A DNA stretch of 47,407 bases from Gammaproteobacteria bacterium. Lineage in GTDB: Bacteria > Pseudomonadota > Gammaproteobacteria > Pseudomonadales > Azotimanducaceae. A program made the translations under genes and the position numbers. Below the pieces are notes generated by a model. It worked only from the letters and a program-made list of their open reading frames with translations. It ran no database searches and had not been told where the DNA came from. The stretch spans positions 1-47,407 of the forward strand of contig VXYL01000098.1 of NCBI GenBank assembly GCA_009846005.1, written 5' to 3'. Shown one piece after another: positions 14,377-29,920 of this stretch (within the stretch, counting starts at the first letter, position 1; each line of letters starts with the position of its first letter).

Positions 14377-15639
14377 TCAATGGGCTGCGCTGCCTTCGCT
14401 CGCTCCCAGCCAACTGCAGAGGCGGTTGACAACGGCCTGACGCGCCCCACGGTTGGCATCGACCACGCTCTTGGCGGCCGCGCCCTCTTTAGCGCGTCGC
14501 ATCGGGTCTGCGAATAGCTCGCCAACGATGCGGGCGATGTCGTGGGCGTCCTCTACGGGGTAGAAGCAACCCGCCGCCGCGAACCGCGCGCAGATCTCCT
14601 CCACGTCGTGACGCGTCGGGCCCATCAGCACCGGCACGCCGTGCACCGCCGCCTCGATGGGATTGTGACCGCCGGTGCCGTCGAGGCTGCCGCCCACGAA
14701 GGCGACGCCGGCATGCGGGTAGAGGTGCGCCAGCGTTCCCATGACGTCGCCGAGAAGAACATCGACTCCCGTTGCGCGCTCCGACAGCAATCCGGTCGAG
14801 AACCCGTGGTCTCTCACCACTCGCCCAACGTCGGCGGCGCGCTCCGGATGCCGGGGAACGAGGATCAGCCCGGCTTCCGGGAATCGATCACGCAGTTGGC
14901 GGTGGGCGTCGAGCACGACCGCTTCTTCGCCGCCGTGCGTGCTTCCGGCGATCCAAACGGGCGCGTCGCCGAAGCCGAGGTCGCCCACCCCGAAGCCGTC
15001 GGGCGGCATTTCGGCATCGAACTTGACGCTGCCGGTGACCTCGACGGACTTGGCACCCAGGGACCGAAACCGCGCCGCCGTGTCGTCATACTGGCAGAGG
15101 ATCCCGTCGATTCGGCCGAGCATTCGCCGGACAAGCGACCCGATCCGCCGATAGCCGCGATAGGACCGCTCCGAGAGTCGGGCATTGACCAGGTAGACCG
15201 ACGCGCCACTGGACGCGGTCTGTTCGACGAGGTTGGGCCACAACTCGGTCTCCATGAGTATGAGCGCCCTTGGCCGCACATGACGCAGGAACCGCGCCAC
15301 GGCCCAGGGATAGTCGTAGGGGGCATAGCAATGCTCGACGGTGTCCCCGAGCAGGCTGGCGACGCGTGCGCTGCCCGTGGGCGTCATGGTGGTCACCAGG
15401 AAGGTGTCATCGGGGAAGCGTTCCTGCACGGCACGAATGACCGGCGCTGCCGCGTTGGTTTCCCCGGCCGAGACGGTGTGGAACCAGATCACCCCGGTGG
15501 ACAAACCCGGCGGCACGTGTCCGAAACGTTCCGCCCGGCGCTGCCGGTAGGCCGGCTCCCGGCGGGCGCGCACGAACAACCGGACCCACACCCAGGGCAG
15601 CGCCAGGACGAGCAGCACCTGGTAGAAGGGTCGGATCAT
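14377..15639 (-). CDS. waaA: 3-deoxy-D-manno-octulosonic acid (Kdo) transferase
   Basis: WaaA adds Kdo to lipid IVA at the inner face of the inner membrane, the first step of LPS core synthesis. The 420-residue protein starts with a hydrophobic anchor (FYQVLLVLALPWVWVRLFV). The GT30 domain follows, with WFHTVSAGETNAAAPVI and its catalytic-base Glu, TTMTPTGS, METELWPNLV, SVKFDAEMPP, IAGSTHGGEE, VPRHPER and the C-terminal GGHNPIEAAVHGVPVLMGP. The ATG at 15639 gives the family N-terminus; an in-frame upstream extension is not conserved. It is separated from the rest of the LPS genes by the three-gene operon at 15717-19279. Confidence 0.95.
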   Translation of the reverse strand: MIRPFYQVLLVLALPWVWVRLFVRARREPAYRQRRAERFGHVPPGLSTGVIWFHTVSAGETNAAAPVIRAVQERFPDDTFLVTTMTPTGSARVASLLGDTVEHCYAPYDYPWAVARFLRHVRPRALILMETELWPNLVEQTASSGASVYLVNARLSERSYRGYRRIGSLVRRMLGRIDGILCQYDDTAARFRSLGAKSVEVTGSVKFDAEMPPDGFGVGDLGFGDAPVWIAGSTHGGEEAVVLDAHRQLRDRFPEAGLILVPRHPERAADVGRVVRDHGFSTGLLSERATGVDVLLGDVMGTLAHLYPHAGVAFVGGSLDGTGGHNPIEAAVHGVPVLMGPTRHDVEEICARFAAAGCFYPVEDAHDIARIVGELFADPMRRAKEGAAAKSVVDANRGARQAVVNRLCSWLGASEGSAAH

Positions 15640-18482: not shown

Positions 18483-19279
18483 GACGCCCACTGGGGGACA
18501 CCGGTATCGAGGTCTCGCCCCTCGGTCTCGGCACCGTGAAGTTCGGGCGCAATACCGGCGTCGACTATCCGCGCGCCTACGAGTTGCCGACCGACAGCCT
18601 GATCGCCGAGTTGCTGGTCCAGGCGCAAAGTCACGGCATCAACCTGCTCGACACGGCGCCGGCATACGGAACGAGCGAGGCGCGTATCGGCGAGGCCATT
18701 GAAGGGCATCGCGACGAATGGGTCGTCTGCACCAAGGCCGGCGAGACATTCGTCGCCTCCAAGTCGCATTTCGATTTCAGTGAAGACCACATCCTACGAA
18801 GCGTCGAGCAGTCCCTTGCGCGGCTGCGCACGGACACCCTCGACATCCTGCTGCTGCACAGCGACGGCCGCCCGGTCGACGAGATCGAGTCCCTCGGGGC
18901 ATTCCGTGCATTGTCGAGGCTTCGACGCGAAGGCACCGTACGGGCAATCGGTTTCTCGGGAAAGTCAGCCACGGACGCCGAAGCCGCCATGCACGGGTCC
19001 GACGTGCTGATGTGCACCATTAACGCCACCTACCGAGACGAGGTCGCTGTTGTCCGCAAAGCCGCGAATCGAGGCATGGGTGTTCTGGTCAAGAAACCGC
19101 TCGGCCGAGGACTCGCTGGCGATTGCGAAACGATTGCAGAGACCGCGAGCCTGCCGGGCGTTAGCAGCGTCGTGGTCGGCACCCTATCCCCGGACCACCT
19201 GGCGGCGAACGCCACAGCGGTTCGGGGTCGCCCCGGAATCGACCCTACGCGTCCGCTGGCCGCTCTGGGAAGCCGATGA
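18476..19279 (+). CDS. Aldo/keto reductase
   Basis: This is a 267-residue NAD(P)H-dependent carbonyl reductase of the AKR superfamily. The catalytic tetrad is visible: Asp and Tyr in NLLDTAPAYGTSE, Lys in VVCTKAGE, and His in ILLLHSDGRP. The strand IGFSGKSA and a C-terminal cofactor-binding region (VLVKKPLGRGL, SVVVGTLSPDHLAANA) follow. It overlaps the flavoprotein gene by 7 bp and overlaps the convergent hldE by 35 bp at the 3' ends. With the two genes before it this makes a compact redox operon inserted among LPS genes. The substrate cannot be inferred. Confidence 0.85.
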   Translation: MLRRPLGDTGIEVSPLGLGTVKFGRNTGVDYPRAYELPTDSLIAELLVQAQSHGINLLDTAPAYGTSEARIGEAIEGHRDEWVVCTKAGETFVASKSHFDFSEDHILRSVEQSLARLRTDTLDILLLHSDGRPVDEIESLGAFRALSRLRREGTVRAIGFSGKSATDAEAAMHGSDVLMCTINATYRDEVAVVRKAANRGMGVLVKKPLGRGLAGDCETIAETASLPGVSSVVVGTLSPDHLAANATAVRGRPGIDPTRPLAALGSR

Positions 19280-20681
19280 ATTCGACCAGCTTGGTCGTCG
19301 AATACTCCCCGACCTCGCTCAACACGCGCACGTCACCGCCATAGCGCCGGACGAACTCGCCACCAACGACTTCGTGGGCCGCGTAGTCGCCACCCTTGAC
19401 CAGCACGTCGGGGCGAATTTCCTCAAGCAACGCCTCGGGCGTGTCCTCCGAGAACGGCACCACCCAGTCCACGGCGGCGAGGCCCTCCAAGACGCGCATT
19501 CGTTCCCGAAGCTTGTTGACGGGACGACCTTCCCCTTTAAGGCGGCGCACCGAGTCGTCGTCGTTGATCGCGACGATCAGTCGATCGCCGAGTTGGCGCG
19601 CCTCGTCGAGATAGCCGACATGACCCGCATGGAGGATGTCGAAACAGCCGTTCGTAAACACGATTCGGGCGCCTTGGCGACGGGCACGAGCAACGGCTTC
19701 GGCTAGCTGGCGGCGGTTCGACGCGGCTCGCGCGGTGGATACGTTGTCCCGAAGCGCCGCATTGAGCTCGGCAAGCGACACGGCTGCCGTACCTGCCTTG
19801 GCGCATACCAACGCGCCCGCGACGTTTGCCAAGCGGGCGCTGTCCGACCAGGTCCAGCCTCTTGCCGCGCAAACGCCGAAGGCGGCCGCCACGGTATCGC
19901 CGGCACCGGTCGAGTCGTAGACGTCGATTCCAAGGGCCGGCACGTGCACAACGGGTCCGCTGCTTTCGAACAACGTCAAGCCGTCACCACCCCGAGTCAG
20001 GGCGATGGCGTCGATACCGCTTGCACGCGCCAGGGCCGGGCCCAACTCCGCGAGTTCCCCGTCGTCCGGCCAACGACCGAGCGCTTGGCGAAGCTCCCGC
20101 CGGTTCGGTTTGAGCAAGGCAGCGCCCCGGTACTCGGTGAAGGGCTTGAACTTCGGATCGACGACCGTGGTGATGCCCTGTGCGGCGGCAAGGATGCGTT
20201 GGGGCCGATCAATCGCCCCCTTGTCATAGTCCTCGACAACGATGGCGTCCTTGCCACCGGCATGACGCGCCACGCGCTTGGCGACTTCGATGGCCACCGA
20301 TTCAGCCAAGGGCGCCTCGAAGTCCATGCGAGCGATCTGCTTGCGCATGCTGACGACCCGTTCCTTCAAGGTCGTTCGCCAGCCATCGACGACCACGAGG
20401 TCGGCATCCACGTTAGCGGCGTCGAGCAGCTCGGCGACCACGCTCCCGCCCCGGTCGTCGCCAACGGCGCCCACCAAGGTGCAGCCGGCGCCTAGCGAGA
20501 CAACATTCAAGGCGACGTTGGCCGCACCGCCTAGGCGATCTTCCGAGCCGTCAACCTGCACGATGGGCACCGGCGCCTCCTCCGAAACGCGTTCGGTCCG
20601 GCCGTAGAGGTAGCGATCAAGCATGACGTCCCCGACCACGAGAACATGCACATCGGGAGCCGAAGGAAGCGGGCGATTCAT
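19245..20681 (-). CDS. hldE: Bifunctional heptose-7-phosphate kinase / heptose-1-phosphate adenylyltransferase
   Basis: HldE catalyses two steps toward ADP-heptose, the donor used by WaaC and WaaF. In its 478 residues the N-terminal PfkB-type kinase (about 10-315) has RLGGAANVALN and the catalytic DSTGAGDT (Asp 262). The C-terminal nucleotidyltransferase (about 340-478) has FTNGCFDILHAGH and the closing YSTTKLVEFI. The ATG at 20681 overlaps the preceding glycosyltransferase stop as ATGA, which suggests translational coupling. An in-frame ATG at 20714 is less likely because it lies inside that gene. It is the last gene of the minus-strand LPS-core operon. Confidence 0.95.
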   Translation of the reverse strand: MNRPLPSAPDVHVLVVGDVMLDRYLYGRTERVSEEAPVPIVQVDGSEDRLGGAANVALNVVSLGAGCTLVGAVGDDRGGSVVAELLDAANVDADLVVVDGWRTTLKERVVSMRKQIARMDFEAPLAESVAIEVAKRVARHAGGKDAIVVEDYDKGAIDRPQRILAAAQGITTVVDPKFKPFTEYRGAALLKPNRRELRQALGRWPDDGELAELGPALARASGIDAIALTRGGDGLTLFESSGPVVHVPALGIDVYDSTGAGDTVAAAFGVCAARGWTWSDSARLANVAGALVCAKAGTAAVSLAELNAALRDNVSTARAASNRRQLAEAVARARRQGARIVFTNGCFDILHAGHVGYLDEARQLGDRLIVAINDDDSVRRLKGEGRPVNKLRERMRVLEGLAAVDWVVPFSEDTPEALLEEIRPDVLVKGGDYAAHEVVGGEFVRRYGGDVRVLSEVGEYSTTKLVEFIGFPERPADA

Positions 20682-21700
20682 CTCCTCGATCCTACCAAAA
20701 CCTCCCGGTAGCATTCCGCCAGGGCCTCGACCGAAAACCGCGCTGCAACGCGCTGCCGGGCTCGTTCTATCGTCTCGGTTCGCGCGCGCGAGGCAAACGT
20801 GCGCAACACCCCGAGAAGCTCGTCATCCGTCCCGAAGTACGTCCCGCAATCTCCCACCACGCTTCGCGGCCCCGGCCGATCGGCAACCACGACCGGCACG
20901 CCAGCCGACATGGCCTCGAGCAACACGAATCCGAACGCCTCGCGATCCGTGGAACAGAGCAGAACGAGGTCGAAAGCGCTGAGCAGGCTTCGCGCATCGG
21001 CCCTGTATCCAGCGACGACAACCCGCTCGCCGATTGCCTGCTCGATACGCGACCGCAGTGGGCCGTCGCCGACGAACGCCAACCACGCATCAGGATCCTC
21101 GCGACGGTAGGTGTCGAAGACACGGAGTGCGCGAAGGGGATCCTTTTTCGGATGAAGTCGCCCGACGACGCCGATCGCGAAAGCCTGCGAAGGAACGCCG
21201 AGGCTCGCACGCGCCGGCCCACGTTCCAAGATCGACTCCTGCAGGGCATGCGTATCGATGGCATTGGGCAGCACCACCGGCGAACCGATGCCCGACTCGC
21301 CGAGATCCGCCGCCACGGGTACCGACGCGGCAGCGAACACCGCATGGTTCCGACCGGCGAGTCGGCGGCGAAGCCGACGGGCCCGGCGGGCGAACATGCC
21401 GAACTCGTGCGCAACCGCAATGTGCAAAGGAACCCTCAGACGCCGGGACATCCGAACGCCAACGCGGTAGGCGCGATGGCGGTGCGTCAGGAGCAGGGCC
21501 GGACGTTCCCCGCCGACGAATTCCGGAAGCTGCCGTGGTGTCGCGTAGTGTACCGCCGGTAACGGCCGAGCCGGGCCTCGCCCCTCGAAGAAGACTGTGC
21601 GCACGCGGAATCCCAGCAACTCAAGAGCCTTGGCATGCCCGACGCACAGGTCGAAGAACGGCGCCTGGTCGTTCGGGCAGAGTTGCAGCGCGCTACGCAT
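20678..21700 (-). CDS. GT4-family glycosyltransferase, probably LPS core
   Basis: This 340-residue GT-B glycosyltransferase has IGVVGRLHPKKDPLRALRVF (nucleotide-sugar binding) and the retaining GT4 motif EAFGFVLLEAMSAGVPVVV (E-x7-E). The N-terminal domain has a His-rich acceptor-side segment, LLLTHRHRAYRVG. Its place between the carbamoyltransferase and hldE corresponds to wapH in the Pseudomonas core cluster, so I infer that it adds a core sugar. The donor and acceptor are not determinable. It overlaps the carbamoyltransferase by 8 bp and hldE by 4 bp. Confidence 0.85.
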   Translation of the reverse strand: MRSALQLCPNDQAPFFDLCVGHAKALELLGFRVRTVFFEGRGPARPLPAVHYATPRQLPEFVGGERPALLLTHRHRAYRVGVRMSRRLRVPLHIAVAHEFGMFARRARRLRRRLAGRNHAVFAAASVPVAADLGESGIGSPVVLPNAIDTHALQESILERGPARASLGVPSQAFAIGVVGRLHPKKDPLRALRVFDTYRREDPDAWLAFVGDGPLRSRIEQAIGERVVVAGYRADARSLLSAFDLVLLCSTDREAFGFVLLEAMSAGVPVVVADRPGPRSVVGDCGTYFGTDDELLGVLRTFASRARTETIERARQRVAARFSVEALAECYREVLVGSRR

Positions 21701-23429
21701 TCGGCACGCCCTGCTTCGTGATCAGTAGATCCTCGATGACCAGGTAGCCGAGGTCGGAACCGACGAAAATCCCCAAGGCATCGGTAGGCGTGCAGGCAAT
21801 AGGTTCGCCGCGCCGGTTCAGCGACGTGTTGAGCAGCACGGGCGTCCCGGTCAGTTCGCCGATTCGCTCGAGCAACGCGTAGTAGCGAGGGTTCACGTCC
21901 CGGGTGACGACCTGTGCGCGGGCGGTGCCGTCGACATGGACGACCTCGGGGATCCGCGACTGCCATCGTTCGGCGACATCGAAGGCGATGGTCATGAACG
22001 GCGCCGGGTGGCTCGTGCCCAGTATGTCGGTGGCGACGGTGTCGGTGAGCGACGGGCAGAACGGACGCCAACGCTCGCGGTACTTGATCTCGGCGTTGAT
22101 CCGTGCGGCGATGCCCGGAATGCTGGGACAGCCCAGGATGCTGCGCGCACCCAAGGCCCTAGGCCCGAATTCCATGCGCCCCTGGAACCACGCCAACGGA
22201 TGCCCGGCGGCGAGGATGTCCGCCGCGCACGCCGGAACGTCGTCGAGTTCCTGCGCCGAGAGGCCTGGATGGGATGCCAATGCCTCCCGGCACTCACGAG
22301 ACGAAAACCCCGGCCCCAGGTAGACGTGGGTCATCGGCCGCACCACGTCGCCCAACCGGCTTGCCACGTGGGTCGCGGCACCCAGCGCCGTACCGGCATC
22401 GCCCGCAGCCGGTTGGACGAACAGTTCGTCGACATCGTCCCGTTCGAGAATGCGCTTGTTCAGCTTGACGTTGAGCGCTCCGCCGCCCGCGAACACGAGG
22501 CGACCGGTGGCGGCAAGAACGTCGCCCAAGTACGCCTCGATCAGCTCAAGGCAGGCGTCCTCGTAGGCCTGCTGCATCGCCGCGGCGTGGTGGACGTAGG
22601 GCTCGTCCGCTGCATCGCCGTGCCGGGGCGGCCCCAGCCGCCTCACCAACCCCGCACCGAAGTAGCGGCCGCGGCCGCCATCACGGTAGCGCCGAAGACC
22701 TACCGTATTGACCATCCGCGAGTCGACGCGAACGTCGCCGTCGGTGCAGCCAAGCAGCGGCGCGAAATCGAAGCGGCTCGGGTCGCCGTACGGCGCCATG
22801 CCCATCAGCTTGTACTCGCCGTCGAGCATCTCAAAGCCCAGGTATTCGGTCAGCGCTCCATAGACGCCCGACAGCGAGTCGGGATCGTAGAACTCGTGAA
22901 TGCGTGTGATTCCGCCAGCCTCGCCCACGCCGAAAAACGTCGTCGCGTACTCACCCTTGCCATCCACCCCGAGCACCGCCGTCTTTCCGTCGAAGCCAGA
23001 CAGGTGGTAGGCGCTCGAGGCATGGGCGAGATGGTGTTCCACCGGCTCGAAGGCCGTCTGCGACCAATCGATCCCCAAGGTCTTGCCGAGCGCCGTCACT
23101 CGGGCGCGGTTGCGCCGGTAGCGGCGATTGCCGTTGACGATTGCATCGAGCGCCCGGTCAGGCGCGTACCAATGGCGCTTGGCGTAGTGCCATCGGGCGG
23201 GGGAGAAAATCGAGATCGGCGCATACGGGAACGCCACCGCATCGATCTGCGTCGCCGCCACGCCGGCTTCTTCGAGACAGTATCGCGCGGCCTCTCGCGG
23301 CATCCGGTTCTGCGCATGCTTCTCCCGGACGAAGCGCTCCTCTTCGGCAGCAGCGGCGATCTCCCCATCCACTAGGAGCGCGGCCGACGGGTCATGTCCC
23401 AGTGCGCCGGAAAGCCCTAGGATGATCAA
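21693..23429 (-). CDS. Carbamoyltransferase, NodU/CmcH family (WapO-like)
   Basis: This family transfers a carbamoyl group from carbamoyl phosphate to a sugar hydroxyl. In the 578-residue protein the N-terminal domain begins GLSGALGHDPSAALLVDG and has AEEERFVREKH and HHLAHASSAYHLSGF (metal/ATP-binding His residues). VFAGGGALNVKLNKRI follows. The C-terminal YrdC-like half has FQGRMEFGPRALGARSIL and the closing LLNTSLNRRGEPIACTP. In Pseudomonas the equivalent gene (wapO) carbamoylates heptose II of the core, which fits this location. The start is TTG at 23429, supported by GGGGAG 5 nt upstream. It overlaps the kinase stop as TTGA. Confidence 0.88.
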   Translation of the reverse strand: MIILGLSGALGHDPSAALLVDGEIAAAAEEERFVREKHAQNRMPREAARYCLEEAGVAATQIDAVAFPYAPISIFSPARWHYAKRHWYAPDRALDAIVNGNRRYRRNRARVTALGKTLGIDWSQTAFEPVEHHLAHASSAYHLSGFDGKTAVLGVDGKGEYATTFFGVGEAGGITRIHEFYDPDSLSGVYGALTEYLGFEMLDGEYKLMGMAPYGDPSRFDFAPLLGCTDGDVRVDSRMVNTVGLRRYRDGGRGRYFGAGLVRRLGPPRHGDAADEPYVHHAAAMQQAYEDACLELIEAYLGDVLAATGRLVFAGGGALNVKLNKRILERDDVDELFVQPAAGDAGTALGAATHVASRLGDVVRPMTHVYLGPGFSSRECREALASHPGLSAQELDDVPACAADILAAGHPLAWFQGRMEFGPRALGARSILGCPSIPGIAARINAEIKYRERWRPFCPSLTDTVATDILGTSHPAPFMTIAFDVAERWQSRIPEVVHVDGTARAQVVTRDVNPRYYALLERIGELTGTPVLLNTSLNRRGEPIACTPTDALGIFVGSDLGYLVIEDLLITKQGVPNA

Positions 23430-25711
23430 GCGCGCTCCCCGCTAACACCCCGTTCCCGACCGAGAGCGGCTCGAATCGCTGTCGGCGGGTCCGGCCAATT
23501 GGCGAGGAACCGCACGCGGTCGCGCCGATGCGCGCCAACGAACCGCCATCGACCGCGGTGAAAGGCGGCTGCGTCGAGATCCAGAACGTGGATGTCTGCG
23601 TCCTTGACGACAAAATTGCTCGCCTTGGTATCCCCGTGCGCGAACCGAAGCTCCCGCCACGCGGCAAACGTACGCGCCATCGCGTTGCCGAGATCCGGAT
23701 CGACACGGGCGCCGTCGATAACCGCGTCGAGGCGCTCCCCGTCGACATGGTCGACGACGAGAAATGCTACGGCCTCACCGGTTTGCGGGCGGCACACCTC
23801 GATCAGGGCCCGCGGCCGAGGCGTGGCCAAACCGGCGAGCCGCAGGCCGTGGCCCGCCCGCCAGGACCGAAACGCTCGCGTACCGCGCAACCGCAGGCGG
23901 AGGCGGTGCCAACGATCCTTCGTGACATAACGCTTGACGACGAAATCGCCGTACCGGACGGCCGACGCCGTGTTGCCGCGTTTCAACGGCTCGCCCGCCG
24001 CTGCCGCGCCATCCGGGTCCGCGAGGATCCGCATGAGCTGCGGATCGTCCTCGCCCCTCGCGACAACGACTCGGCAACCGTGGTCCTCGCGTATTGCGAA
24101 AGCCGTGCAGTCGCGTCCGGTCTTGGCAATGAACTTCGCCACCCGACGTCGACGCGCGCGTGCCACGCGGTGGCATAAGTTGCCCAAAGCGACTTTCGGC
24201 AAGACAACGCCCGCCGCATCTTCGTATGCCGCCGTCAGCGGCACAAGCGGCCCGAGCGCGGCGCTGGGGTAGTGGGCGAGCAGACGGGCCACATCGGCCA
24301 GGCGGCGGGTGCTGTTAGGGGGGGTCGACACGCGGATGCTGCCGCCATCGATCGCATATACGCGATTGCCGGAGACGAGAAAGTTGCCGGGGTGCAGATC
24401 ACGTTGCCGGATGCCGCGACAGTGCATTTGCGCAAGCGTGGCCAGCAACTTCCCGACATCGCGGACCGAGGGCTCGCGGGCATCGTCGAGGACCTCGAAC
24501 GCGAGGATTCGCGCACCCCCACCCGCACCGGCCCCAACCAATTCGGGGGTCGCCACGCCAGACCCGCGCAGCGCTTTCGCGCCGCGTTTTTCGCGTGCCC
24601 AGTCCCGTTCGGCTCTGGGTCCGAAGAACGCCTTCAGGATCAGTTCCCGACCATCGATCGTCGCCCGCAAGACCAGCCGCCGGCCCGGCTGCGCCCGAAG
24701 CACAGCCGTGCAGATCGCTCGCACGGCGTCCGCGCCGGGGACCGCGGCAGGGTCGGCGTTGGAGGGCGCTCGCCACGGCCGCAGGTCCAGGTCGAACCGA
24801 AACGGCAATGCGGGATCCCGGCCCAGGTCCGCCAAGCGCCCGACCGAGGCAATCCCCCCGCCAGCGAGCGCACGCTCGCCCGTTGCCAGGGCGTCGGCAA
24901 CCGCGCGCCTGCGGAGGCGCTCCGCTCGGCGCCGCACGGCGCGCCAGAAACCGGCATGACGACGCAACTCGACCCCGGCGGGCGTACCTGCATACGCGGC
25001 CACGAAGCACAAACGATCGCGGTCGGTGAGCGGCATCGCCGACGTCGAAAACAACAGCGCGCCGAGATCCCGCACGCGGGCGCGTGCGGAGAGACGACGA
25101 TGAACTCGCGCGCGGTGGAGGTCGATCACCGCGAGTTCGGCTTCGCCCCGGGCGAGCTTGGCCGCGTTGGCCAATAGGTGACATGCGTAGTAGTCCCGGT
25201 GGCAAACCCCCGCCGCGTGGATGGCGGCGGTTAGGCGTCCGGTCGCCGTCAGCAGGTCTCGCTTCAGCTTGGCGTCGGGCGGCGTTCCGAGCCAACCGTG
25301 TCCGACGTCCTCAAGGCTCGTGAATCCGTCCAACGCATCGCAGAGGGCGAAGGAGCGCCGGCGCGCGGGATTGAGGCCACATTCGCCGAAGGCAGCCACG
25401 TCCGGCACGGCCACGCCGCCGGCGCGTAGTCGTCGAATGGCCTCGAATTCGTTTCGGGCACCGAGAACCGGCCGTTTCCCGGCGAGCAGGTTCTTGGCGA
25501 TCTCCCACCACCCGACGCCTTCGTGGGTCTTCGCGAAATAGGCCTTGCCCGCGATCAAGACCCGCGACGTACAGCGGCGGGCAGAGCGCCGGTAGACTTC
25601 CCCCTGCAGCCGCGACAGGGCGGCGAAGACATCGTCGTGGCTGCCCGGCGTGCCGAGCGCGCCGCTCTGCACGGCCGTTTCGAGATCGTCACGCAGGTAG
25701 AGACTCTGCAT
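23426..25711 (-). CDS. waaP: Triple-domain LPS-core kinase: WaaP-like kinase fused to two further kinase-like domains
   Basis: The 761-residue protein holds three kinase-like domains. Domain 1 (about 30-270) matches WaaP, the heptose I kinase: RLQGEVYRR, YFAKTHEGVGWWEIAKNLLA, LGARNEFEAIRRL, catalytic GVCHRDYYACH (Asp 173) and VIDLHRARV (about 196). Domain 2 (about 305-535) has LILKAFFG (Lys 360), RQRDLHPGNFL (Asp 438) and YAIDGGSI. Domain 3 (about 545-755) has FVVKRYV (Lys 593), RFAHGDTKASNFVV (Asp 694) and VLDLDA. In Pseudomonas waaP is followed by separate small kinase genes of about this size. The ATG at 25711 is supported by GGGAGGGG upstream; an ATG at 25732 is also in frame. It overlaps the waaG gene by 23 bp. 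Confidence 0.88.
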   Translation of the reverse strand: MQSLYLRDDLETAVQSGALGTPGSHDDVFAALSRLQGEVYRRSARRCTSRVLIAGKAYFAKTHEGVGWWEIAKNLLAGKRPVLGARNEFEAIRRLRAGGVAVPDVAAFGECGLNPARRRSFALCDALDGFTSLEDVGHGWLGTPPDAKLKRDLLTATGRLTAAIHAAGVCHRDYYACHLLANAAKLARGEAELAVIDLHRARVHRRLSARARVRDLGALLFSTSAMPLTDRDRLCFVAAYAGTPAGVELRRHAGFWRAVRRRAERLRRRAVADALATGERALAGGGIASVGRLADLGRDPALPFRFDLDLRPWRAPSNADPAAVPGADAVRAICTAVLRAQPGRRLVLRATIDGRELILKAFFGPRAERDWAREKRGAKALRGSGVATPELVGAGAGGGARILAFEVLDDAREPSVRDVGKLLATLAQMHCRGIRQRDLHPGNFLVSGNRVYAIDGGSIRVSTPPNSTRRLADVARLLAHYPSAALGPLVPLTAAYEDAAGVVLPKVALGNLCHRVARARRRRVAKFIAKTGRDCTAFAIREDHGCRVVVARGEDDPQLMRILADPDGAAAAGEPLKRGNTASAVRYGDFVVKRYVTKDRWHRLRLRLRGTRAFRSWRAGHGLRLAGLATPRPRALIEVCRPQTGEAVAFLVVDHVDGERLDAVIDGARVDPDLGNAMARTFAAWRELRFAHGDTKASNFVVKDADIHVLDLDAAAFHRGRWRFVGAHRRDRVRFLANWPDPPTAIRAALGRERGVSGERA

Positions 25712-27818
25712 GAACGCCCCTCCCGCGTGCATGTTGTTCAATGGCCGCCGCCACGCGGTCGGCCTGGCCGAAGCGGTCGGGATCCGCCGCGAACATGACG
25801 GCATTGGCCGACCACCGCGATCGCTGCGCCACCGACTCTACGAAGCTCGCGAGGGCCTTGTTGAGGTCGCCCTGGCGAAACGCCGAATCCAGCACGATAC
25901 CGGCGTCGGCATCGCTCACCAAGCCCGACTCGTGAACCGCGGCGCAGGTGACGACCGGTCGCCCCGCGGCCAGCGCGTCGAACACCCAGCCATTGCAGGT
26001 CGGTCGGTAGGAGAGATCCACGAACGCATCCGCCGCTTCAATGGCATCTAGCGGCGACAGGTCGATGTCGACGCGGATCCGTCGGCCGAGCCCGAACACC
26101 CGCCCGGCGTTGCCGAAGCGAACGTCCAGCCGGCCGGCGCCGAGCACGGCGCAGCGTCCCCGGAGTGCCTCCGGCAACCTTCCGAGGCCCATGATCAGTC
26201 GCTCGAAACCGCGGCCCGCCAAGTCGCCGCCCACCATGGCAAACACGATCGCCTGTTGATCGAAATCGAATTCCGCGCGGACGGCTTTGCGGTTTCGTCC
26301 CGGGGGCATCGGCGCGTGCTCAAGTCCAGCCTTTCCTTCGGTCGGTGCGAATAGCGATGCCGGTCCAGCGTCGTTCGCATCGGACGCTTCGAGAGGCGCC
26401 GCGATGTAGCGAAGGTCCATTCCCGGGATGACCTCGAACCCGACCCGAGTTCCCATCGGCGTCCACCGCAGCCAAGTAGCCAGCCATTCCCGTCGCCGCA
26501 GCCATCGCTTGTGGCGGCCAACCGCCGTTGCCGGTACGACGACCACGTCCAGGCCCTGCGGCGGCGAACCGCGCCAGTCGCCGACGAATACCTGAACGTT
26601 CATGCCGCGTCGACGACACGCCTGGGCAACCGGCACGAGCGCTCGGTACCTAGGATCGGTCTTGGAATAATCCAGTGCGCAAAAGGAGACCACGGGCGGC
26701 TCGCGACCGGAGGCGACGGCCTCGAGTAACTCGACCGCCCGGGGAGCCATGGCGTAGAGCGACTCGTCGGCCGCCAGTTGCCTTCCTCGATGGGACCAGT
26801 GCGCACGTTCGTCTGCGGTGAGCAGCCTCTCGAGGTCGGCGTTGAATCGCCCCTGTTCGAACGGCGCTGGCGTCACGATTCCCGCGTCGGATTCCCGGAG
26901 GATGGCGGCGTAGCCGCAGTTCGCGGTCGTCAGCACCGGCACGCCGGCAATGGCCGCTTCAAGGATCACCATCCCCGCCGCCTCGTCGTAGGCTGGCAAC
27001 GCGAATGCATCCGCGCCCTGAAGCCACGCCGCGACGTCATCGCGGCCCCCGACAAAGCGGACGCGCCGAGCGACGCCTAGGCGACGCGCCAAGCGCTGGA
27101 ATCGCGCCGCTTTGTCGTCGCCGACCACGAAAAGGCGCACACGTTTCCGGACTGCCGCAGGCAGCGCGGCCACGCCTACAAGTAGGCGGTCGAGTCCCTT
27201 CTTCACGAAGCCCGAACCCACGAACAACAGCAGGATGTCCGTGCCGGCCACGCCGAATTCGGTCCTGAGCGCTCGGCCGGCCTCCGCCGTGGCGGCATTC
27301 CGGTCTCGCTCGATTCCCGGCGGCAGGGAACGGAACCGATGCGCTGGAGTGCCGTAGACGGTCCTGAAGACGGCGTCCTGGTCCGGCGCAATCGTCAGGA
27401 TTCGAGTGCGGGATTCGCGCGCGAATACGGCCCGTTCGAATGCCCCGTAGTGCCTGTACCGGGACGTCAGTCGATACGGCCAAGGACGCTGGGTTCTGGC
27501 CTTGTCCTCGAAGCACGAGTCGGCGGCGTAGTAGACGTCGAGACCCGGCATCTTGTTCATCCCCACGACGAGATCGACCGGGTGGCCCGCGACATGGTCC
27601 GCGACGCGCTCGGCGAATCGGCGTTGCCGAACATGGCTGCGGACACCGCGCTGGGCCAGCACAACGACCTCGACGCCGTCTACCCGAGGGCCTTCCCACT
27701 CCAGCGCGTAGATCCTCGCCTGGTGTCCCCGCGCCCGGCAGCGCGACACGATCTTCACCAGGTCGCGTGCCGATCCCCCGTGCGGGAAGAACTTGAAGAT
27801 GACGAACGCGACGCGCAT
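25689..27818 (-). CDS. waaG: Double WaaG-type glycosyltransferase: active WaaG domain fused to a degenerate second copy
   Basis: Residues 1-370 match WaaG, the core glucosyltransferase: FVIFKFFPHGGSARDL, MNKMPGLDVYYAADSCFE, RLTSRYRHYGAFERAVF, LPPGIERDR, FVGSGFVKKGLDRLL and the catalytic DEAAGMVILEA (Glu 279 and Glu 287). Residues 375-700 repeat the same pattern in weaker form: DYSKTDPRYRALVPVAQ, GFEVIPGMDLRYIAA, PPGRNR, MVGGDLAGRGFERLI, ADAFVDLSYRPTCNGWVFDA and DADAGIVLDSAFRQGDLN. In the second copy the E-x7-E pair is replaced (Thr 607 and Ala 615), so it is probably non-catalytic or altered in specificity. Usual WaaG length is about 370. The ATG at 27818 gives the family N-terminus. It follows waaC by 9 bp. 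Confidence 0.9.
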   Translation of the reverse strand: MRVAFVIFKFFPHGGSARDLVKIVSRCRARGHQARIYALEWEGPRVDGVEVVVLAQRGVRSHVRQRRFAERVADHVAGHPVDLVVGMNKMPGLDVYYAADSCFEDKARTQRPWPYRLTSRYRHYGAFERAVFARESRTRILTIAPDQDAVFRTVYGTPAHRFRSLPPGIERDRNAATAEAGRALRTEFGVAGTDILLLFVGSGFVKKGLDRLLVGVAALPAAVRKRVRLFVVGDDKAARFQRLARRLGVARRVRFVGGRDDVAAWLQGADAFALPAYDEAAGMVILEAAIAGVPVLTTANCGYAAILRESDAGIVTPAPFEQGRFNADLERLLTADERAHWSHRGRQLAADESLYAMAPRAVELLEAVASGREPPVVSFCALDYSKTDPRYRALVPVAQACRRRGMNVQVFVGDWRGSPPQGLDVVVVPATAVGRHKRWLRRREWLATWLRWTPMGTRVGFEVIPGMDLRYIAAPLEASDANDAGPASLFAPTEGKAGLEHAPMPPGRNRKAVRAEFDFDQQAIVFAMVGGDLAGRGFERLIMGLGRLPEALRGRCAVLGAGRLDVRFGNAGRVFGLGRRIRVDIDLSPLDAIEAADAFVDLSYRPTCNGWVFDALAAGRPVVTCAAVHESGLVSDADAGIVLDSAFRQGDLNKALASFVESVAQRSRWSANAVMFAADPDRFGQADRVAAAIEQHARGRGVHAESLPA

Positions 27819-27827
27819 GGGTGCCGG

Positions 27828-28880
27828 CTACGCGACCCGGCCGCGCCGGTGCCGGTCCATCAACTCGGTGAGCGCCGCCCACGCCCGGGCCGGCGCCACC
27901 GCCTCGAGGCACGGCGGTCCCGAACCGCGAGCTTCGTATCGCGTCCCGAGCTCCCGGCCCAACCGACAGCGCCTTGACCCGCACGGCGAACACGGCAACG
28001 ACGCCGCGAGATTGCGCACAAAGGGCCCCCGGCCCCCGGTTCGCGATGGGTCGCTCGGTCCGAACAGCATCACCGTCGGTCGTCCCAGCGCCCCTCCGAG
28101 ATGAGCGAGTCCGCTGTCGACCCCCACGACGCCGCTGGCATCGGCAAGCAATCGTATGACACCGTCCAAGTCCGTACGCGGCCAGATACGTGCACCGGGC
28201 GCCGCGTTGGCGATGCGCTCGGCCCGGCCCCGCTCGCCGTTTGTCCACGGCAATACCGGGACGAATCCGTGCGCCGTCACGAGCTGCGCGAGGGTCGTCC
28301 AGAACACCTCGGGCCAGTGTTTCGTCGACCATGTCGTGCCGTGCGCGAGCACCACCGCGCGATCGGCGCGCGCCCCAAGGTTCCGGCCACGACAGGACAG
28401 GTCGAATACGGCGTCGCCCTCCGGTCGTACATAGCCCAGGGCGTCAGCGAACAGGCGGCGCGTTCGGTCGATGGCATGCCAGTTCGGCGACACCGCGATC
28501 CTGCGGTCGTAGGCCAACGTAGCCGCTCGCTCCCGGGAACTCGCCGCGTCGAACCCCACGCGTTGCCCGGCGTGCGTCCAACAGGCCACCGCGGCGCTCT
28601 TCAGCAAGCCCTGTGCATCCAGGACCAGATCGTAGCGACGTTTCCGAAGGCGCTGTCGGAACGCTCGCAGTTCGGCGCGATATGCGAACGGCGCCGTGCG
28701 CCAGCGGCGAAACGCCACTTCAACTACCCGATCGACCCCTGCGGCGAGGGCAGGCACCGCGCGGTAGTTCTCCTCGACGACCCAGTCGAACCGCACCCCA
28801 TGGCGAACGGCGTCATCGACAGCCGGCAGTGTATGCACGATGTCGCCCAACGACGACATCTTGACCAGCAGTACCTTCAC
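27828..28880 (-). CDS. waaC: LPS heptosyltransferase I
   Basis: WaaC transfers the first L-glycero-D-manno-heptose from ADP-heptose to Kdo2-lipid A. It is 350 residues, GT9 family. VLLVKMSSLGDIVHTLPAV holds the catalytic Asp near residue 13. LVLDAQGLLKSA, LAHGTTWSTKHWPEVFW and the donor site GVDSGLAHLGGALGRPTVM with FGPSDPSRTGG follow. The GTG at 28880 gives this N-terminus and overlaps the waaF stop as GTGA; the open frame upstream is inside waaF. Confidence 0.95.
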   Translation of the reverse strand: MKVLLVKMSSLGDIVHTLPAVDDAVRHGVRFDWVVEENYRAVPALAAGVDRVVEVAFRRWRTAPFAYRAELRAFRQRLRKRRYDLVLDAQGLLKSAAVACWTHAGQRVGFDAASSRERAATLAYDRRIAVSPNWHAIDRTRRLFADALGYVRPEGDAVFDLSCRGRNLGARADRAVVLAHGTTWSTKHWPEVFWTTLAQLVTAHGFVPVLPWTNGERGRAERIANAAPGARIWPRTDLDGVIRLLADASGVVGVDSGLAHLGGALGRPTVMLFGPSDPSRTGGRGPFVRNLAASLPCSPCGSRRCRLGRELGTRYEARGSGPPCLEAVAPARAWAALTELMDRHRRGRVA

Positions 28881-29920
28881 GCGCCAGCGACACCGAGTTC
28901 GTGCAAAGCATCCATCGCGCGTTGTGCCGAGATGTTGGTGAGGCAGGCCAGATGGCCTAGCGGACATTCCCGCTTGAAGCAGGGTCGGCAAGGCAGTTCC
29001 TCGCCAATGGCCACCGCGCGGGACGACAGCGGCGGGGTGAACGCCGATGTCGTGGATCCGTAGATGGCGACGACGGGCACGTCGAGCGCCGCCGCGACAT
29101 GCATCAACCCGGAATCGTTGGTTACCGCCGCATCGGCCACCGACAGGATATCCACCACCTCGTAGAGCTTGGTCTTACCGGTGAGGTCGAGCGCCGGGGA
29201 ACCTGCGGCGATTGTTGCGCCCAATCCGGCATCGCGGACACTGCCGAGGACGCACACGGCCGCTCCGGTCCCCGCCAGACGCCGCGCTAGGTCGGCGAAA
29301 CGCTCGGCCGGCCAGCGCTTCGACGGCCCGTATTCCGCGCCGGGACACAGAGCGACGAGGGTGCGGCCGCCGAGATGGAGACCGAATCTCCGTAGCAGCT
29401 CTTCTCCACTCAACGCGTTGGCCTCCAAGCGTGGATTCGACGGCGCTACGTTGGCAAGGGACGCAAAACGGTCCACCTGACGCGGCAGATTCTGAACGTC
29501 TAGCTTGCGGCGGTCGTTGAGCAGGCCGAAGCGCGCTTCGCCGGTGAAGCCCGTCCGACGCGGGATGCCGGCCAGAAAAGGCGCCAGCGCCGACTTCCAC
29601 GAGTTCGGCAGCACGATCGCCCAGTCGAATCGGCGCTGTCGGATACGCGACGCGACCTCGAGGCGCTCGCGCAAACCGAGGGCACCCCGGGCCACGTTCA
29701 ATTCGTGCACGGTCGTCACGTCGGGCATTCGCCGCGCGATGCCGTGCGTTGTAGGCGGCACAAGGAAGTCGACCACGGCACCGCGGCGGGCGAGGCCCGG
29801 AACCAGTGCATTGGCCATGACCATGTCCCCCACCCATGCGGGGGCAACTACAAGAACTCTCGCCGCGGCCGTGTCTACGTCCTTTGGTTGGGGCGCCGAT
29901 CCACGGAACAAAACCCGCAA
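28877..29920 (-). CDS. waaF: LPS heptosyltransferase II
   Basis: WaaF adds the second heptose of the inner core. It is 347 residues, GT9 family. VLVVAPAWVGDMVMANAL holds the catalytic Asp. AIVLPNSWKSALAPFLAGIP, TGFTGEARFGLLND, LCPGAEYGPSKRWPAE and TNDSGLMHVAAALDVPVVA with FTPPLS are all diagnostic. About 20 residues precede the conserved start, so the TTG at 29920 is only one option; a second TTG at 29911 and a GGGGG tract nearby leave the true start open. It is the first gene of the LPS run and lies 76 bp after ilvE, with a palindromic repeat in the gap. Confidence 0.94.
   Translation of the reverse strand: MRVLFRGSAPQPKDVDTAAARVLVVAPAWVGDMVMANALVPGLARRGAVVDFLVPPTTHGIARRMPDVTTVHELNVARGALGLRERLEVASRIRQRRFDWAIVLPNSWKSALAPFLAGIPRRTGFTGEARFGLLNDRRKLDVQNLPRQVDRFASLANVAPSNPRLEANALSGEELLRRFGLHLGGRTLVALCPGAEYGPSKRWPAERFADLARRLAGTGAAVCVLGSVRDAGLGATIAAGSPALDLTGKTKLYEVVDILSVADAAVTNDSGLMHVAAALDVPVVAIYGSTTSAFTPPLSSRAVAIGEELPCRPCFKRECPLGHLACLTNISAQRAMDALHELGVAGA

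Follow-up and report, generated by a model that had tools for sequence, protein, structure and literature searches.

In Pseudomonas aeruginosa, the kinase WaaP phosphorylates the first heptose of the lipopolysaccharide (LPS) core, a step apparently needed for later core phosphorylation (PMC6147952; this and the other papers are cited from titles, abstracts, and passages of open-licence text). Phosphates occupy positions 2 and 4 of heptose I and position 6 of heptose II in the core of P. syringae pv. phaseolicola, and di- and triphosphates are found in the cores of P. aeruginosa and P. syringae DC3000 (PMC8005017); no enzyme for the formation of heptose di- or triphosphates is named in the passages covered. 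In the P. aeruginosa core cluster, the genes scored as essential in three of three conditions include PA5006, waaP, and wapP, and PA5007 is unmarked (PMC9866376, Table 5). The gene of the PA5006 slot is induced by RpoH together with waaP (PMC9866376), and its product is labeled a kinase, putative kinase, or Ser/Thr kinase in these sources, with no assigned step that we could find there. Here we describe a gene in a 47,407-nucleotide stretch of DNA (contig VXYL01000098.1 of assembly GCA_009846005.1, hereafter the window) from a gammaproteobacterium of the Azotimanducaceae, in which WaaP is joined in one chain to what, by alignment and gene order, is the two-domain kinase of the PA5006 slot. We consider it a genuine fusion of two neighbors in a Pseudomonas-type LPS core operon and, most likely, a tethered multistep inner-core kinase. 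The fusion is real, conserved, and recurrent; its parts are known, and the combination was not found in the open-licence literature, whose titles, abstracts, and passages yielded no description of a WaaP-kinase fusion and whose surveys of bacterial kinases, as far as covered, mention no tandem LPS kinase.

Three kinase domains in one chain

The gene is a single open reading frame of 761 codons on the minus strand, with zero internal stops, and encodes three kinase folds. Its parts are listed below in window coordinates (pLDDT, predicted local distance difference test).

23426 to 25711, minus strand: fused gene for WaaP and the tandem kinase, 761 residues, ATG at 25711
24896 to 25711, minus strand: domain 1, WaaP, residues 1 to 272 (K61, E88, H171-R172-D173, H178, D197; profiles and fold match 6DFL)
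24734 to 24895, minus strand: linker, residues 273 to 326 (pLDDT below 50 at 273 to 301 and 324 to 326)
24107 to 24733, minus strand: domain 2, kinase, residues 327 to 535 (K360, E374, D438, H440, N443, D455)
23447 to 24106, minus strand: domain 3, kinase related to KdkA, Bud32, and WapP, residues 536 to 755 (K593, H692, D694, K696, N699, D711)

A longer in-frame start exists at 25804, yet a Met is aligned with that at 25711 in the relatives L072 and L076 (L numbers denote loci and G numbers genomes). The first-pass annotation of this DNA had proposed three kinase folds in one chain, and the stop-free frame, the fold models, and the profiles agree with it. It had also named what could overturn the proposal, namely, stop codons near residue 290 or 540 betraying a sequencing error, or second and third domains with some other fold. 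The frame runs uninterrupted through all 761 residues, so that neither position carries a stop, the joined form recurs in several assemblies including one single-contig genome (G013), and the models show kinase folds.

Domain 1 is WaaP, by curated cutoff, motifs, and fold. It matches the Pfam Kdo/WaaP family with an E value of 8.6e-52 and exceeds the curated NCBIfam cutoff for RfaP (NF011703, 262.5 bits versus 170). The motifs picked out earlier, HRDYYACH (D173) and IDLHR (D197), are located as claimed, and the Lys, Glu, HRD, and Asp-Leu-His set given for P. aeruginosa WaaP in passages of PMC6147952 is present as K61, E88, H171-D173, and D197-H199. Among 120 WaaP rows, in which duplicates of some records were kept, the catalytic residues are identical in all 120, with K61 in 119 (one gap), and the position of E88 holds Glu in 114 and Asp in 6. 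The top fold match of the full-length model is 6DFL (rank 1, E value 2.3e-18, 37% identity), with a template modeling score (TM-score) of 0.89 on the target (241 residues) over 265 alignment columns. Domain 1 thus resembles P. aeruginosa WaaP/RfaP (PA5009, PDB 6DFL) in sequence, fold, all motifs, and operon place after waaC and a glycosyltransferase gene; the difference is that WaaP stands alone there, with about 270 residues, whereas here it forms the N-terminal third of a 761-residue chain.

Domains 2 and 3 align end to end, at 25 to 38% identity, with separate two-domain kinase genes. Such a separate tandem gene, encoding about 440 to 525 residues, is found in other genera of the family, in Pseudomonas and Stutzerimonas, and in Betaproteobacteria. 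In the other genera of the family, waaP and the tandem gene are separate, adjacent or near to each other, and mostly in the same operon order, and in Pseudomonas and Stutzerimonas the tandem gene sits between the small kinase genes and a carbamoyltransferase gene, that is, in the PA5006 slot. The window's tandem adjoins a carbamoyltransferase gene as in these Pseudomonas-type loci; some betaproteobacterial loci have no such neighbor. Alignment and gene order identify domains 2 and 3 with the PA5006-slot two-domain kinase, which is usually encoded separately. They share with it two kinase domains, the same residues, and the slot before the carbamoyltransferase gene, and they differ in being fused to WaaP, in a genome in which our searches found no WapP- or WapQ-type gene.

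The first-pass annotation had instead taken domains 2 and 3 for counterparts of the separate small kinases WapP and WapQ, an assignment that has to be given up. In hmmsearch, the best models for the two domains were D2 (228 bits) and D3 (231 bits), which were built partly from the sequences under test, and the WapP and WapQ profiles, themselves built from motif-picked sequences, scored within domain 1 only (31 and 70 bits). A distant kinship of domain 3 to WapP stands, as far as profile comparison goes, since among four other kinase profiles that of WapP is the nearest to it (profile-profile, hhalign E value 4.8e-19).

Domain 1 passes the RfaP cutoff and domain 3, on its own, the Pfam Kdo cutoff (33.2 versus 21.3 bits). 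Domain 2 is the weakest by sequence and yields only subthreshold Pkinase and ABC1 matches when the 761-residue protein is searched against Pfam. A single-sequence search of solved structures gave no convincing match (best E value for domain 2, 0.09), and a profile of 49 tandem sequences matched kinases of known structure, including WaaP 6DFL, over the domain 2 region with an E value of about 1e-7. At an E value of 0.01, each of the 49 hits both the Pfam Kdo/WaaP family and the Kdo kinase model of NCBIfam; 43 of them match Pkinase in a table that does not separate domain 2 from domain 3. For the window's tandem, no curated tandem-specific family emerged: NCBIfam gave none above cutoff, and the Pfam models above cutoff were all general ones (Kdo, APH, and WaaY). 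The best NCBIfam matches of domain 3 are KdkA (NF002475, 48.2 versus 142 bits) and Bud32 (TIGR03724, 56.3 versus 125 bits), from which it differs in that the scores fall far below the curated cutoffs and the Glu of helix alpha-C is missing.

The catalytic residues of the two extra domains had been placed at K360 and D438 (in RDLHPGNF) and at K593 and D694 (in HGDTKASNF), and these are indeed found there, with the Lys/Asp/Asp sets intact. Loci L072 to L151 were chosen by the loop motif HGD[TML]K[AG][ST]N[FLI], which makes loop conservation among them circular, and for this reason we use counts from the 28 rows that were not chosen by motif. In all 28, the N-lobe Lys, the catalytic Asp, the following His or Lys with Asn, and the metal Asp are identical in both domains. 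The same residues are found in all 15 fused rows and in 107 to 108 of all 108 rows, L091 having no position for K360 because its contig ends there. The counts were made after removal of L040, L044, L050, L059, L060, L061, L064, and L065, which duplicate records of other loci, of the odd or weak L162 and L164, and of rows with a single domain. The ratio of nonsynonymous to synonymous substitution rates against four relatives of the same genus, with synonymous sites near saturation for L076, is 0.12 to 0.18 for domain 1 and 0.21 to 0.31 for domains 2 and 3. Being well below 1 in every domain, it suggests purifying selection on all three.

Modeled alone, the tandem forms two kinase folds (mean pLDDT 92.0, predicted TM-score [pTM] 0.89). 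Ranked against solved structures, this model finds two-kinase JAK/TYK2 chains in the top three places, followed by RIO2 and protein kinases, with WaaP at rank 12. Its TM-scores on the whole query are low (0.22 to 0.31; 0.22 to 0.25 for the JAK/TYK2 chains), as expected of matches that cover one domain or have domains placed differently. The full-chain model has a pLDDT of 85.7 and a pTM of 0.62, with a poorly ordered linker at residues 273 to 326; it was built from an alignment of 24 rows (A5) in which domains 2 and 3 rest on six rows and from which L073 was excluded because its frame crosses an N run. An earlier full-length alignment that included separate tandem rows (A2) was dropped, since it showed domain 1 residues as invariant even in rows lacking that domain.

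Distribution and origins

Within the genus, the whole fusion is present in one frame in 10 of 16 genomes, one of which (G005) reads across an N run; the nine fusions outside the window's own genome are 50 to 76% identical to that of the window. Its parts lie at two contig ends in G001, G009 (74% complete) gave no match, and the other four genomes are taken up below. In a class sample of 369 genomes, a tandem profile matched 49 at an E value of 1e-30, with both domains in 30. WaaP shares the frame in 5 of these 30 (G000, G059, G420, G399, and G192), from four families including the window's own. The remaining 25 were judged from frame lengths of 455 to 604 residues, too short for both WaaP and the tandem, and the four of them that were read in detail (G056, G072, G207, and G318) all have separate genes. 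An order sample of 293 genomes, assessed by frame length, has the full WaaP-tandem frame in the window's genome only, with a long frame lacking the WaaP part in G038 and separate genes in G443.

Among the 19 single-domain matches of the class sample, five long frames were read, and all five encode WaaP and domain 3 (G073, G167, G135, G382, and G283); the five do not include the frames of G172 (450 residues) and G418 (565 residues). A sixth such case, G600, came from the order sample. The six loci (L154, L155, L156, L161, L163, and L166) have proteins of 460 to 554 residues, with HRD and HGDxKxxN in 6/6 and, by simple patterns, the N-lobe Lys in 3/6 and a DLD strand in 4/6.

A scan of named genomes with the loop motif given above confirmed at least 555 relatives, of which the best 80 were taken (L072 to L151). 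These 80 include five congeners and a WaaP-tandem fusion in uncultured Gammaproteobacteria bacterium FRAM18_bin228 (L129), and in six (L099, L104, L121, L131, L133, and L145; by title four Rhodocyclaceae and two Betaproteobacteria) a WapP-type kinase is fused to the tandem. The latter resemble the window's gene in carrying a core kinase at the N terminus of the same tandem module, and differ in that the partner is of the WapP rather than the WaaP type and in forming a separate clade. The arrangement, which the first-pass annotation had not known from any described system, is not unique: the same domain count recurs in the genus and in three further families, and Rhodocyclaceae and related Betaproteobacteria have the WapP-type form.

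On a tree of 70 tandem sequences, from which 38 of the 108 rows had been thinned out, the label WaaP-fused requires four changes, two of which are forced by well-supported branches alone; the long branches L153 and L034 weaken the exact count. The four changes are read as four fusions, with the qualification that on such a tree any one could be a gain or a loss. The WapP-type fusion makes up an additional clade. In an earlier tree, with 101 rows and without those later added for three of the lineages, the WaaP fusion called for two changes and the WapP-type fusion for one. A single old fusion can be set aside, as one clade of all 15 fused rows was rejected (approximately unbiased test, p-AU 3.99e-12), and so was one clade of the five fused rows outside the genus (p-AU 8.2e-06).

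The surrounding core operon

The fused gene belongs to a tight operon of waaF, waaC, a double glycosyltransferase gene, the fused gene, a carbamoyltransferase gene, a further glycosyltransferase gene, and hldE; ilvE precedes waaF, and waaA lies farther along the window. It overlaps the upstream glycosyltransferase gene by 23 nucleotides and the downstream carbamoyltransferase frame by 4. The other genes are as follows (GT4, glycosyltransferase family 4).

28877 to 29920, minus strand: waaF, heptosyltransferase II (TIGR02195, 351.4 bits, cutoff 134.6)
27828 to 28991, minus strand: waaC, heptosyltransferase I (TIGR02193, 300.1 bits, cutoff 185.3), as a mechanical reading frame
25689 to 27818, minus strand: 709-residue protein with two GT4 domains, WapG/WaaG slot
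21693 to 23429, minus strand: carbamoyltransferase with Carbam_trans N and C domains, WapO slot according to a table in PMC8005017
20678 to 21700, minus strand: GT4 glycosyltransferase, WapH slot according to the same table
19245 to 20714, minus strand: hldE, ADP-heptose synthesis (PRK11316, 534.8 bits, cutoff 521)
15013 to 15540, minus strand: match to the N domain of waaA, Kdo transferase (PF04413, E value 2.8e-67)

The waaC profile match begins at residue 39, so that the true start is probably further in. Compared with the Pseudomonas core cluster PA5012 to PA5004, as tabulated in PMC8005017, the order is the same, with wapP and wapQ missing here and hldE directly next; waaP had been expected in this place of a Pseudomonas-like operon, and so it is. 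The WapG-slot protein combines two GT4 domains in a single chain, a double form seen in many loci of the family, which puts two fused genes side by side in this operon. In G021, which belongs to another genus of the family, a 908-residue frame of the same operon (L039:7475-10201, minus strand) joins a glycosyltransferase, a second glycosyltransferase-like stretch, and a WaaP domain. In the congeners G004 and G014, the place of the tandem is held by a hydrophobic 440-residue frame (L031:6466-7785 and L033:9494-10813) that by eye resembles a WaaL-type ligase or polymerase.

In the window's genome, which is 97% complete, PF06293 and a WapQ-type profile find matches in the fused gene only, and a WapP-type profile gave no match at an E value of 0.01 in a search without a positive control. 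By these three probes, the fusion is the sole core kinase of the genome. The WapQ-type small kinases of other loci were also inspected. At the place of the WaaP catalytic-loop Asp, the 36 readable among 37 matches have Cys (33), Ser (2), or Ala (1) and never Asp, a count that leans to Cys through a profile made from motif-picked rows and in which a few loci are the same records (examples are L078:7195-7944, L083:7168-7914, L105:7213-7959, L141:7156-7911, and L148:7156-7911). From their sequences these kinases look like pseudokinases, which fits PA5007 being without an essential mark.

A proposed tethered inner-core kinase and its alternatives

We take the site of phosphorylation by the WaaP family to be position 4 of heptose I. 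In a tethered multistep kinase, domain 1 would use ATP to phosphorylate the first inner-core heptose at this position, and the tandem, on a flexible linker of about 50 residues, would place one or two more phosphates on the same nascent lipid A-core, at the cytoplasmic face of the inner membrane and either ahead of the carbamoylation of the second heptose or along with it. The substrate, order, and activity given here to domains 2 and 3 are what we infer. That one polypeptide might add several inner-core phosphates had been suggested at the outset, and multistep phosphorylation indeed appears possible for a chain of this composition. Repeated fusion usually marks partners in one process, which argues for the PA5006-type tandem as a working inner-core kinase; the repeated joining of core kinases to the tandem is the strongest hint that they may share a pathway step or substrate. 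Conceivably, though this is a long shot, the tandem is a phosphate-stacking enzyme that turns the monophosphates made by WaaP (and, in Pseudomonas, also by WapP) into heptose di- and triphosphates, the fusion handing over the product of domain 1.

Several observations weigh against a tethered multistep kinase. In domain 3, the place of the alpha-C Glu, which is conserved in domain 1 (E88) and domain 2 (E374), is taken by S616 according to profile alignments with WapP and WaaP, and across 108 rows it holds Ser (85), Ala (21), Cys (1), or Gly (1) and in no case Glu; a Glu is found three residues further on, at residue 619, in 43 of the 108. Catalysis by this domain could thus be weak or absent, and it may represent either an unusual kinase or one that has degenerated. 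The first-pass annotation had considered the loops of domains 2 and 3 intact and activity possible, which the Lys/Asp/Asp sets support; the missing Glu is a caveat that it had not seen. Among close relatives, WaaP stands alone in G004 and G014, where a different gene comes after it, it is joined to a shortened domain 2 in G012, and the two genes are separate in G015, so that the fusion, and even the tandem, is dispensable there. With a pTM of 0.62 and six rows for domains 2 and 3, the full-chain model does not settle the relative placement of the domains. Finally, the comparison of the tandem with the PA5006 slot covers the slot genes of Pseudomonas species other than P. aeruginosa, and the empty WapP-type search lacked a positive control.

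Possibly, activity is limited to domain 1 and one domain of the tandem, and the other (domain 3 or domain 2) binds ATP as a pseudokinase-like allosteric partner in the manner of JAK-type tandems. We consider this unlikely but worth keeping in mind. The missing alpha-C Glu in 108 of 108 rows would fit, as would the two-kinase JAK/TYK2 chains at ranks 1 to 3 among the tandem model's fold matches, with TM-scores that do not imply a like mutual placement, and the WapQ-type neighbors indicate that degenerate kinases do occur in the operon. However, domain 3 has kept its Lys, HGDxKxxN, and metal Asp in the 28 rows that were not motif-picked, and it is the domain retained when domain 2 is missing, as in the six loci with WaaP and domain 3, a persistence not expected if it were nothing but a partner of domain 2.

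It is quite improbable, in our view, that the tandem is a protein kinase or a regulator of core assembly rather than an LPS kinase, fused to WaaP for localization. PA5006 carries the annotation Ser/Thr protein kinase in the passages covered of PMC9866376, and a bacterial two-hybrid assay shows it to interact with two further proteins (PMC8707732). The tandem sequences have weak matches to Pkinase, RIO1, and Bud32, and near the tandem no other core gene was recognized in L052 (14 kb) and L123 (17 kb). Against this stand the Kdo/WaaP and Kdo kinase matches of all 49 tandem sequences and the presence of at least one other core gene in the stretch read at 18 of 19 separate tandem loci; among the best 80 of at least 555 loci, only L091, on a 5-kb contig, and L123 are without one. 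That the joined frame is an assembly or sequencing artifact of separate genes is hardly credible: the source genome is a 106-contig assembly, but the same frame in 10 of the 16 genomes of the genus, divergent and in one case on a single contig, and in three further families, refutes this as far as sequence can.

We therefore return to the tethered multistep kinase as the preferred reading. Joining WaaP to a usually separate and poorly understood two-domain kinase suggests that the two may act successively on the same molecule. Given that PA5006 is listed as essential, with no step assigned to it in the papers covered, the fusion gives a clue to its function. It would also offer a single-chain handle on which domain adds which phosphate, a question that bears on the integrity of the outer membrane.

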